A DNA stretch of 6,398 bases from NCBI GenBank assembly GCA_023250585.1, contig JAHFAK010000121.1:1-6398 (forward strand), written 5' to 3'. How positions within the stretch are numbered: position 1 is the first letter of the stretch; the number at the start of each line of letters is the position of its first letter. This DNA is from Deltaproteobacteria bacterium. Lineage in GTDB: Bacteria > Bdellovibrionota_F > JAHFAK01. A program made the translations under genes and the position numbers. Under the pieces are notes generated by a model that was not told where the DNA came from, did no database searches, and was given only the letters and a program-made list of their open reading frames with translations. Below, piece by piece: positions 1,481 through 5,236 of the stretch.

Positions 1481-2674
1481 TTATAAAAAATGTTTTTGAG
1501 TTTCTTCTTCGTGTTTTTTTAAATAAGCCATAAATGGCGTTCCGCCGGTACCCACTTGAGTTGCATTTGCAAGTGAAGTTTGATTTTGTTTTTGAATATA
1601 ATCAGCAGCAAATCGAAGATGCGTTCCTCTAAAACGACCGATTAATGAAATACACTCATTATAGAGATCTCGAAGCTCTCCATTATTGTTTGCATGTTTC
1701 TGAATACAGGTTCGAACTGACGGACCTTTTTCTATGCTATGTAAAAATGCAACATGTTCTCGCGGCATGTACAAGCGCATTTCATCAAGGTGCGTACGTA
1801 AGGGATTATTTTCATGATCAATTTTTAAAAGCGCATCAAAAGAAGGAATAATCGTACTTTGTGCACCGGTCTCACCCTTGAATTTCATCGGTTTATTTTC
1901 GTATGCAGTAACACCTTCATACAACATTCCTTCGGGCAATGCGGGATTATCTTTCCATCCATGAATATAAGGCCGGACGCGATTGTAATAAATATAGGGA
2001 TCGCAGAATTCCGGCATGCAATCCATGGTTGCATTCATCGCTTCGAGCGATCCAACCATTTTTTTCATTAAAGGTGTTAATGCAGAAATATCTTTTTTAG
2101 TCACAGCTTCTTGAATTGGATGAATGGCCATTAATCCTTCTGTAGCTTTTGCTTCAATGTCGACGTGGATTAGAATAAACCATTCTTCATCAAGACCACC
2201 GAGAAAATTTTGTATTAAAGCAATGTTACCGAGCTCGATTGGTTTATGAAGATCGATTCGTTTCCAATTATAGAGAGCATAAGAGGCATACGACAAAATA
2301 GGTGGACGACCTAATTGTGTTGCAGCAGCATACCATGCGGTTGCTAAATGTTTCGGAAGTTTTGCAATTGGCTTTTCACCGCTTGCCCAAACATACGCTT
2401 GTCCAATGTATGATAACACAACCATTGCACGCTCATATTCCTCAGCTGTTCGAAGCGCCTCAATAGGAAAAGACGGCAGAGCTCCCACAATTTTTCGATA
2501 CTGATTAGTCATTAATAATTTTGGAAGAGCACAAGCAACTTCTTCCCATACAGCACATTCTTTCGGCAATGTACCTAATGGCGCTTCTCGCGGTAAAAAT
2601 GCATGGCTTAAATCATAATGAGAACCATCTTTACTAAGCTCAAATGGACTACTTAAAAGTTTTTTGTTTTGCAT
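1481..2674 (-). CDS. Indoleamine 2,3-dioxygenase (IDO) family heme protein
   Basis: A 397-residue protein with IDO family signatures along its whole length, near the usual size of about 400. Seen in order: LGRPPILSYASYALYNW (121-137), LDEEWFILIHVDIEAKA (161-177), CDPYIYYNRVRPYIHGW (224-240), GETGAQST (267-274), MRLYMPREHVAFL (299-311), PSVR (318-321), RFRGTHLRFAADYI (347-360) and VGTGGTPFMAYLK (374-386). His352 matches the proximal heme ligand (human IDO1 His346), Arg234 matches Arg231, and Tyr229 sits at human Phe226. His170 falls at or next to the distal position of human Ser167. Expected reaction: L-tryptophan + O2 to N-formylkynurenine, in the cytoplasm. I start at the ATG at 2672-2674; a TTG two codons upstream (2680) is possible, and neither has a good ribosome site. 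It is followed 2 bases later by the CoA-binding gene. No clear promoter was found in 2681-2736. Substrate is inferred from family only. Confidence 0.93.
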   Translation of the reverse strand: MQNKKLLSSPFELSKDGSHYDLSHAFLPREAPLGTLPKECAVWEEVACALPKLLMTNQYRKIVGALPSFPIEALRTAEEYERAMVVLSYIGQAYVWASGEKPIAKLPKHLATAWYAAATQLGRPPILSYASYALYNWKRIDLHKPIELGNIALIQNFLGGLDEEWFILIHVDIEAKATEGLMAIHPIQEAVTKKDISALTPLMKKMVGSLEAMNATMDCMPEFCDPYIYYNRVRPYIHGWKDNPALPEGMLYEGVTAYENKPMKFKGETGAQSTIIPSFDALLKIDHENNPLRTHLDEMRLYMPREHVAFLHSIEKGPSVRTCIQKHANNNGELRDLYNECISLIGRFRGTHLRFAADYIQKQNQTSLANATQVGTGGTPFMAYLKKHEEETQKHFL

Positions 2675-2736
2675 AATCAATAAATGAAATCAAATACCTC
2701 ATTTTTTGTCTAGCCAAAACGTGCCCGGCAACTTTC

Positions 2737-2786
2737 CAAAAGGTGGGGACCGACATATGAATTCATATGTCGGTCCCCACCTTTTG
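2737..2786. repeat. Perfect 50-bp palindrome: solo REP/MITE-like element
   Basis: Every base from 2737 to 2761 pairs with its partner up to 2786, centred on GACATATGAATTCATATGTC (2752-2771). Each arm begins CAAAAGGTGGGGACCGAC. The left arm equals the left end of the transposase unit (4375-4400) over 26 bases when base 2736 is included. The right arm equals that unit's right end (5212-5236) apart from one A/T base. The palindrome is therefore the two ends fused with nothing between. No target-site duplication is seen. It sits 10 bases past the lipoprotein stop and about 60 bases before the IDO start, so in the leftward transcript it would form a 25-bp stem. That could act as a terminator or 3'-end stabiliser, as known for REP sequences. 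The T-run after it is only TTTT inside the stem base. Confidence 0.95.
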
Positions 2787-2796
2787 ATTGAATATC

Positions 2797-4221
2797 TTAT
2801 TTGATATAAAAAATATCATCCGGAAAATTATTGATAATACTATTGTTTTCATAAATAATAATTTGCTCAGGAGAGACTGGTTGTACAATACACATTCCGC
2901 CACCTTCCACTACCTTCAGGCCTTCTGCTCTATTACCAGAAATACCGTTTTCCTGAAATTCAATTGATCCAAATGTTGCATGGAAGAATCCTCCAGCACC
3001 TCGAGCATATTCACTTCCAAAAATTGTATTATCTTGTATAATGTTGTTACGAAGGGAAATTTTTGTATCTGACCCAAAAGCTCCTATATTAAGTCCTCCT
3101 CCATATACATTAGGGCTTTCAAGAACTTGATTACCAATAATACGGTTATGTGCAATGAGTACTGAATCTGCCACTGACGAATATGCCAATGAAACATATA
3201 AACCAGAGCTATAGACATAATTTTTAGATTGGCCTGTATTATTGGCAATATCGTTGTCAATAATGGCAATCCGAGTTCCTTGAGTTTGTACAGTCCCAAG
3301 AGCTATTCCTGCTCCTATAACATCTCTTTCTTGAAAAAGAGAGCTGTTATTACTTACCGTATTCCCAATAATTCTTATTTCTTGTGCAGTTCCATTTATG
3401 CTTAAGAATACTACTGCTTTATCAAATCCTCTGTGATTAGTAATGCTCGTTCCTTCTATTGCAATAATATTATTTTGAGTTCCTGATGCCGTTTGTATAT
3501 GTAACCCACGAGTTATACTTACCCGATTATTTCCATCGAGAATGATATTGCGAATATATAATTTTGCATCATTGCTATTCTGATTCACCGTAAAAAAATT
3601 GAATACCGAAGAGCTTGTATCTGAATTATTAACAATCCTTGTTTTATTTTGTCCATCAATAATAATATTTCCACTAAACGTTATTCCGCTTTGTATTTTA
3701 AAGGTTCCTTCCAAAAGCAAACATTCAAGCGTTTCATCAGTTATAACTTGATTAACAGAATTTTGAAGGCGTTGAGTTTCATCACTGCCAAGATTTGAAA
3801 TAATGACAAGACTATTACTCCGTGTACATGAACATGCATTTGTTTCTTGTCGAGGATTATAGTTCTGGGGGCAAAGATCCACATCATCATAAATTCCATC
3901 GAAATCGCTATCAACTCGCTCTTTCGCAGCCTCATCTGATGGCGTATCAATAGATATAGAAGTAGAAGGAACTTGAACTTCCTCAGAAGAGGAATCTTCA
4001 TCTTCCGTTTCACTTGTCAAGTTAGATCCTTCAGGGCTAGATGTATTCGAATCAATCGATGCACTATCTGTCGCGAAATCTGTTTCATTTTGACTAGCGT
4101 TTGATACAATTGGAGAAACTTGAGCTGCTTCCCCTCCAATGAAGCTTGTGCTTCCTCCACAGGAACTTAAAATACACAAAAAAATAAAGGTATTATAGTG
4201 TGTTAAAAATATTTTTTGCAT
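2797..4221 (-). CDS. Predicted lipoprotein with TSP3 motif and beta-helix repeats
   Basis: 474 residues. The N-terminus is a lipoprotein signal: Lys3, a hydrophobic stretch (FIFLCIL, 12-18) and lipobox LSSC with the lipidated Cys at 21. Residues 22-103 are a Ser/Thr/Asp/Glu-rich linker. Residues 104-125 (DSDFDGIYDDVDLCPQNYNP) match a thrombospondin type 3 calcium-binding repeat. A CSC motif follows (130-132). From about 160 to the end, short Asn/Ile-rich turns recur (IRIIGNTVSNNS, IAIIDNDIANNTG, LIAHNRIIGNQV, LRNNIIQDNT, FQENGISGNRA), with GGGLNIG and GAGGFFHA between them. This is typical of a right-handed parallel beta-helix as in pectate-lyase-like or polymorphic surface proteins. It is probably anchored in the outer membrane and exposed on the surface or in the periplasm. 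No catalytic residues are evident, so adhesion or a structural role is only a guess. No clear Shine-Dalgarno site precedes the ATG. Confidence 0.85.
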   Translation of the reverse strand: MQKIFLTHYNTFIFLCILSSCGGSTSFIGGEAAQVSPIVSNASQNETDFATDSASIDSNTSSPEGSNLTSETEDEDSSSEEVQVPSTSISIDTPSDEAAKERVDSDFDGIYDDVDLCPQNYNPRQETNACSCTRSNSLVIISNLGSDETQRLQNSVNQVITDETLECLLLEGTFKIQSGITFSGNIIIDGQNKTRIVNNSDTSSSVFNFFTVNQNSNDAKLYIRNIILDGNNRVSITRGLHIQTASGTQNNIIAIEGTSITNHRGFDKAVVFLSINGTAQEIRIIGNTVSNNSSLFQERDVIGAGIALGTVQTQGTRIAIIDNDIANNTGQSKNYVYSSGLYVSLAYSSVADSVLIAHNRIIGNQVLESPNVYGGGLNIGAFGSDTKISLRNNIIQDNTIFGSEYARGAGGFFHATFGSIEFQENGISGNRAEGLKVVEGGGMCIVQPVSPEQIIIYENNSIINNFPDDIFYIK

Positions 4222-4374: not shown

Positions 4375-4400
4375 CCAAAAGGTGGGGACCGACATATGAA
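4375..4400 (+). repeat. Left inverted repeat of the transposase unit
   Basis: The 26 bases starting CCAAAAGGTGGGGACC and ending GACATATGAA are identical to 2736-2761, the left arm of the solo palindrome. GGT-GGGG-ACC within it could form a tiny hairpin in single-stranded form. Similarity to the right end may continue a few bases outward (GAACACC here against GGAACC in the reverse complement of the right end). Confidence 0.9.
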
Positions 4401-4461
4401 AACACATTTTCCAGCAATGTATCTACTCTCAAACAAAATGTACTCTCTTGAAGCTTCTACG

Positions 4462-4514: not shown

Positions 4515-5189
4515 ATGTGCAGTCATTATCTTTCTATGCCAGAGAGACCAACACCACAAAAAGGAGATTGCGTACACCTGACTCTGAGATGTAATAATAA
4601 ATTATTTCTTCTTGACGTTATTAAGTATTGGGATGACATTATTTCGTGGATTGACTGTCTGCCGTACTTTTTCGATATTGCATTACATCATGTCATTGTT
4701 ATGTCTAATCATATTCATATGATTCTTACACTTAAGAAAGATAATATCGGCGAGGCAATGTGTTACTTCACCACAAACCTCTCGAAATTTCTCAACGCTC
4801 AACATCGCTCGATCAATCATGTATTTGGAGGTAGATATTATTCTACATTAATCAAACACGAAAAATATCTCAGCAATGTTATTCGATATCTCTATCAAAA
4901 TCCTGTCAGAGCTGGATTAGTTGATAGTGTCTTTGATTATAAATATTCGAGTTTAGCGTTATACACACAAGGGATAAGCCAAGGGCTTTTTGTTTCACCC
5001 GATCTTTTTACAAAAGAACTATTTGAACAAGGTATTACCGGCCGAGATCTCTGGATCGAACATATAACCCGTATTTACAATGAAAATGAAAAAATCATTA
5101 TTGAACAATCATTACAAAAATTTTCATTTAATTTTACCAAGCGGCAATTAAAAATTATAGATTTGAAAACTGCTTCGCTCATGCTCTAA
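4515..5189 (+). CDS. REP-associated tyrosine transposase (Y1/HUH, RAYT)
   Basis: A 224-residue Y1 transposase. The HUH metal-binding motif is His66-Ile67-His68 within VIVMSNHIHMIL (60-71). The likely catalytic tyrosine is Tyr125 in VIRYLYQNPVRAGLV (122-136), matching the family's RYI..NPVRAGLV. VFGGRYYSTLI (103-113) and YKYSSLALY (142-150) are further family patterns. Residues 151-224 are a less conserved tail, rich in basic and acidic residues. Such enzymes nick and rejoin single-stranded DNA at REP hairpins through a 5'-phosphotyrosine link. The key residues are intact, so it may be active. MPERP at residue 8 (ATG at 4536) looks like the normal N-terminus of relatives and is an alternative start; neither ATG has a ribosome site. 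Matching repeats lie on both sides, at 4375-4400 and 5212-5236. It converges with the hydrolase gene. Confidence 0.9.
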   Translation: MCSHYLSMPERPTPQKGDCVHLTLRCNNKLFLLDVIKYWDDIISWIDCLPYFFDIALHHVIVMSNHIHMILTLKKDNIGEAMCYFTTNLSKFLNAQHRSINHVFGGRYYSTLIKHEKYLSNVIRYLYQNPVRAGLVDSVFDYKYSSLALYTQGISQGLFVSPDLFTKELFEQGITGRDLWIEHITRIYNENEKIIIEQSLQKFSFNFTKRQLKIIDLKTASLML

Positions 5190-5230
5190 AAAGTGCCCCC
5201 GACTAAATGGCTTCATATGTCGGTCCCCAC
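5188..5230 (-). terminator. Candidate hairpin terminator after the hydrolase gene
   Basis: CCGAC (5199-5203) pairs with GTCGG (5219-5223), and GTG (5193-5195) with CAC (5228-5230), across a small internal loop. On the minus strand the structure is followed by TTTTT (5192-5188), about 35 bases past the hydrolase stop, as in an intrinsic terminator. The apical loop is 15 bases, which weakens it. One arm lies in the right inverted repeat, so the same fold could also be a subterminal hairpin recognised by the transposase. Confidence 0.35.
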
Positions 5231-5236
5231 CTTTGG
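5212..5236 (-). repeat. Right inverted repeat of the transposase unit
   Basis: The reverse complement begins CCAAAGGTGGGGACC and ends GACATATGAA. It matches the left end and the solo palindrome arm except for one missing A in the A-run. It begins 22 bases after the transposase stop codon and runs directly into short tandem repeats. Confidence 0.9.

Follow-up and report, generated by a model that had tools for sequence, protein, structure and literature searches.

How did a solo perfect palindrome of 50 bp come to lie between a predicted lipoprotein gene and an indoleamine 2,3-dioxygenase (IDO) family gene, in the neighbourhood of a transposase gene whose unit ends in almost the same sequence? 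The window analysed here spans 6398 bp and is the complete contig C47; the genome to which it belongs has 2.24 Mb assembled in 164 contigs. The features of the window are collected in Table 1.

Table 1. Features of the window discussed in the text
Feature	Position	Strand	Remarks
IDO family gene	1481..2680	-	palindrome about 57 bp upstream of the gene
R2 REP head (CGTGCCCGGCAACTTTC), truncated	2714..2736	+	directly abuts the palindrome
Double-headed R1 REP, 50-bp perfect palindrome	2737..2786	.	two heads (CAAAAGGTGGGGACCGACATATGAA) flank a single ATGAATTCAT core
Predicted lipoprotein gene	2797..4221	-	stop codon 10 bp from the palindrome, which lies downstream
Left R1 REP of the RAYT unit	4376..4421	+	27.4 bits; intact head, decayed tail
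RAYT / TnpAREP-like Y1 (HUH) transposase gene, 224 aa	4515..5189	+	HIH motif, YQNPVRAG
Right R1 REP of the RAYT unit	5189..5236	-	68.8 bits; complete, with head, hairpin and tail

The palindrome and its surroundings

Positions 2737-2761 and 2762-2786 are perfect reverse complements over 25 of 25 nucleotides, with no spacer between them. The runner-up among the perfect even palindromes of the window has arms of 6 nt, and in 200 mononucleotide shuffles the arms never exceeded 9 nt; the palindrome is far beyond chance, and its description in the earlier note as solo and perfect was borne out. As single-stranded DNA it folds with -28 kcal/mol, compared with -6.5 kcal/mol for shuffled sequences (z = -10.8). 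The earlier note had also held that the palindrome equals exactly the two transposon ends fused, about 1.6 kb from the full unit. The distance to the RAYT transposase is indeed 1.6 kb, and the left end of the RAYT unit is identical to a palindrome arm (25/25 nt), but the inverted right end matches it at 24 of 25 positions (CCTTTGG against CCTTTTG at the outer edge, penultimate base), so that "exactly" was slightly too strong.

The anatomy of the palindrome is that of two R1 REP heads around one hairpin core, ATGAATTCAT. The two inverted REPs pair into one hairpin of 25 paired bases, as in a REPIN, but a REPIN of two complete REPs and a spacer would also have both tails, the spacer and a second core; since these are missing, we class the palindrome as a REPIN derivative and not as a REPIN.

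On its left side, the palindrome adjoins an R2 head that is cut after CAACTTTC, exactly at the R1 palindrome edge. Both the insertion of R1 into R2 and recombination at the common CAAAAGGT could have produced this R2/R1 junction at position 2736. No intrinsic terminator (a GC-rich stem followed by a T-run) was called at the palindrome on either strand, and a reading of the palindrome as a terminator was rejected because the scan gave it no support; any RNA-hairpin effect 3' of the lipoprotein gene would be incidental at most. The palindrome is probably a remnant, either dead or weakly mobile. Its site had no match in 40 other genomes. No parental REPIN was found at this site in relatives, the only other genome of the phylum that was searched having neither the lipoprotein/IDO locus nor an R1 REP. 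At positions 140-297, the window also contains a copy of a third repeat family, the palindromic repeat R3 (GTAATGCC...GGGAGTAAGGATG...CTTACTCCC...GGCATTAC; ~112-155 bp), which occurs at roughly 35-40 genomic loci with ~70-87% identity.

The RAYT transposase unit

The open reading frame (ORF) at 4515-5189 contains both SNHIHMI (HxH) and YQNPVRAG, the latter corresponding to the RAYT motif NP(L/V)(R/K)xG. The NCBI RAYT model NF047646 matched it with an E-value of 2.4e-18 and 66.4 bits, which is below the curated cut-off of 80; the match to Pfam Y1_Tnp was weak, and that to the solved TnpArep structure (PDB 4er8) had an E-value of 0.0028. Judged from these motifs and models, the predicted product is a RAYT. 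Nunvar et al. 2010 (PMC2817692) described this motif and the placement of the RAYT gene between two inverted, genome-dispersed REPs. The present unit has the same arrangement, with inverted flanking REPs at 4376-4421 and 5189-5236 whose family numbers ~34 copies in the genome, and heads of the GTGG type are known from other REPs. The ends of the RAYT unit are REP sequences and not ordinary transposon termini. In contrast to the units of PMC2817692, the R1 head is long, its stem is weak and interrupted, the left REP has lost its tail and the family comprises only ~34 copies. A second RAYT, 47% identical to that of the window, is located at C32:7112-7747 and is flanked by R2, and a third, more distant RAYT-like gene is present in C69.

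The R1 and R2 REP families

Both families were counted by searches of the genome. The pattern AAGGTGGGGACCGACATATG was found at 33 sites with at most 3 mismatches, whereas the reversed control pattern was found at none, and a covariance model returned 34 R1 matches in this genome and 0 in the sole other genome of the phylum searched. A wider search of genome contigs (257 billion bases; 18 specified bases) yielded three lone matches, which is about the chance level, and no R1 REP was found in viral contigs.

The R1 REP consensus obtained from copies read with their flanks is CAAAAGGTGGGGACCGACATATGAANNCATTTAGTAGGGGGCAC, and comprises a head starting with CAAAAGGTGGGGACCGAC, an imperfect hairpin with an ATG-AANN-CAT loop, and the tail TTTAGTAGGGGGCAC. 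In the right-hand REP of the RAYT unit, the hairpin consists of the stems GTG/CAC, CCGAC/GTCGG and ATG/CAT closed by the loop AANN; this proposed hairpin is the centroid structure of that REP and is contained in its minimum-free-energy fold. Over 14 aligned copies, 91.6% of the cells pair, compared with 26-53% in slid controls. Despite this degree of pairing, two-sided changes are absent, and covariation support for the hairpin was rejected. The GTGG at columns 7-10 is invariant in the 14 copies, lies 3 nt ahead of the inner stem and pairs in part with the tail.

In approximately half of the R1 copies, the REP is complete with head, hairpin and tail, and the other half are tail-less (a tail was counted as present with at least 11 of 17 matches and as absent with 8 or fewer). 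Many of the tail-less heads are intact and well preserved. Tails without a head were not found anywhere in the genome; as such orphan tails are lacking, a split by the insertion of another element was rejected. Most R1 copies are intergenic, based on simple ORF calling, and intact REPIN relatives of the palindrome are dispersed in the same genome, i.e., inverted R1 pairs of ~95-117 bp, head to head, in C22, C41, C162 and C88.

For some R1 heads, we named the neighbours by reading translations. In C87, C118 and C39, the head is joined to a common repeat of at least 120 nt, which in C87 runs into a Phd/YefM-like antitoxin frame, and in C4 and C45 a PIN-like toxin frame ends directly before the head. 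Toxin-antitoxin modules may be bordered by R1 heads. In C94 (4598-6225), two inverted R1 heads 1.6 kb apart surround metalloprotease-like and acetyltransferase-like genes, an interval that is possibly a cargo unit or a coincidence.

The R2 REP has the head CGTGCCCGGCAACTTTC, the core GGTCG-AAAAA-CGACC and the tail AAAAGGTACACC; its head has 43 matches in the genome and 0 for the control. R2 pairs fall into size classes of ~116, 104, 86 and 49-51 bp, and a hybrid R2/R1 pair is present at C94:16147-16221. Head-head REP dimers, hybrid dimers of two families and intragenic copies have been described for the GTAG/CGTC REPs (PMC3733652), along with Wolbachia CGTC-4 dimers in which the spacer and adjacent REP bases were deleted. 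The elements reported here resemble those dimers in all these respects; they differ in the outer motif, which is neither GTAG nor CGTC, GTGG being the nearest.

Recurrence of the double-headed form

Beyond the window, the double-headed form was identified at four more loci, in both REP families. The smallest R2 class (49-51 bp, in C32, C159, C63 and C112) has exactly one hairpin core in each copy. C63 and C112 hold pieces of the RNase P RNA gene that overlap and differ slightly, and in this gene the R2 form (C63, 37-85; C112, 1025-1075) lengthens a variable helix at positions 126-150 of the RNase P RNA model; because they represent the same gene, the double-headed loci were counted as five. 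A literature search for Rickettsia palindromic elements inside RNase P RNA found no direct paper. In the second R1 case, C113:33675-33724, the arms are unequal (ATATG / TCATG): they have three differing positions, and each corresponds to another REP subtype, the two meeting at the core, as expected from the joining of two different REPs. This element is in frame (SKGGDQLMKSYVGPHLLE) ahead of the TSGSTGQPKG motif of an acyl-CoA ligase, whose ORF is intact. These intragenic forms are compatible with tolerance.

Over both families, the 5 independent double-headed loci compare with 13 REPINs; the solo palindromes do not outnumber the split ones, a comparison that the earlier note had proposed.

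A false join of two heads could imitate such a form, given that the repeat has more than 30 copies and that the assembly is fragmented and probably derived from a metagenome. Several of the 164 contigs end near R1 or R2 copies, and the orientation of the hairpin core is opposite in the two RNase P contigs, an ambiguity typical of palindrome assembly. Nevertheless, the window palindrome has sensible flanks (the lipoprotein stop and the IDO start), the C113 arms are unequal with the reading frame kept, and every double-headed form has exactly one hairpin core, all of which makes an assembly artefact improbable.

Origin of the palindrome

We conclude that the palindrome is probably a shrunken R1 REPIN whose interior was lost between the hairpin cores. 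An in silico deletion between the ATGAATTCAT copies of a consensus REPIN with AATT loops gave the window palindrome letter for letter. Apart from this 10-bp sequence, the two arms of that REPIN have no direct repeat of more than 6 nt in common. An AATT-loop REP is present at C41:2926 and accounts for one of the 14 aligned REPs; with other loops, the core homology falls to 4-5 bp. The 10-bp repeat is assumed for the parent REPIN, which would accordingly have had AATT loops.

The starting state would be an R1 REPIN, i.e., REP, spacer and inverted REP, presumably first spread by the RAYT. Each hairpin core is a palindrome, which makes the two cores near direct repeats of one another as well, and slippage during replication, or recombination, could take place between them, probably while the REPIN was stalled as a hairpin or cruciform; we infer slippage to be the agent. 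The spacer would be lost in the deletion together with both tails and one of the cores, and two heads around a single core would be left.

The loss of an interior and the kinship with the transposase unit, both implied by the minimal non-autonomous derivative of the earlier note, are thus retained, except that the lost interior most likely belonged to a REPIN of ~95-120 bp and not to the RAYT gene unit. Deletion of the transposase gene with its surroundings and fusion of the unit's ends would agree with the 25/25 and 24/25 matches of the left and right ends to the palindrome arm. However, it leaves the differing penultimate base of the right end to be accounted for, it requires a junction without common bases (ATGAA|AACAC and TGGC|TTCAT), and the palindrome is nearer, in both size and structure, to the 13 REPINs than to the RAYT units, of which there are only two, so that we regard this origin as very improbable.

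The earlier note's other suggestion, an ancestral palindrome that was later split by the transposase gene, would explain why the palindrome and the RAYT unit have their ends in common. It is disfavoured by the conserved tail and paired hairpin of the right-hand REP of the RAYT unit and of about half of the R1 copies, both absent from the palindrome. Since about half of the R1 heads are tailed, headless tails are lacking and a tail is present in the right-hand REP of the RAYT unit, we take the palindrome to be derived, and an ancestral one is scarcely credible.

Foldback template switching, in which the replication of a single REP turns at the hairpin loop and recopies the head, would convert a quasi-palindrome into a perfect one, as the identity of the arms at 25 of 25 positions might suggest. 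Symmetry extends past the REP boundary in three of the six double-headed contig copies, by 12-23 nt in C159 and the RNase P copies (C63 and C112), for which foldback template switching fits equally well, as does insertion into a target that is itself palindromic. In the window, however, the symmetry goes precisely as far as the natural end of the REP (CAA/TTG) and stops there, as it does in C162 and C113, which favours deletion over foldback copying, and the three differences between the C113 arms, which fit two REP subtypes, also argue against it. For the window palindrome we consider foldback copying unlikely.

Implications for REPIN decay

Palindromes formed by deletion of a REPIN interior have already been reported in other bacteria, and the present case is another instance. 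Bertels and Rainey 2011 (PMC3116915) mentioned, as seen but unpublished for Pseudomonas fluorescens SBW25, that a REPIN from which the sequence between its two REPs is deleted becomes a long palindrome with a single REP. The inter-REP deletion and its long palindromic product are alike in both cases; unlike in SBW25, the break here is in the hairpin core and two REP families are involved, and the REP sequence and the host are others. What is added is the breakpoint rule (hairpin cores), the fact that the form recurs within one genome in two families, and the lineage of the host.

It is doubtful, though conceivable, that double-headed REPs are a distinct retained class of compact perfect hairpins rather than debris, tolerated or used at constrained sites, namely the reading frame of an acyl-CoA ligase, a variable helix of the RNase P RNA and positions immediately following stop codons. 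They would then have arisen repeatedly, through the same deletion within REPINs, in two RAYT/REP families of a phylum that has hardly been sampled. Whether such remnants are ever used is a question better put to the in-frame and RNase P insertions than to the window palindrome.

The findings add RAYT/REPIN systems to a sparsely sampled phylum, in the form of two families that each have one RAYT. They also offer a simple account of REPIN decay: the palindromic nature of the cores makes two inverted REPs direct repeats as well, so that an interior deletion that keeps both heads is an expected end product.
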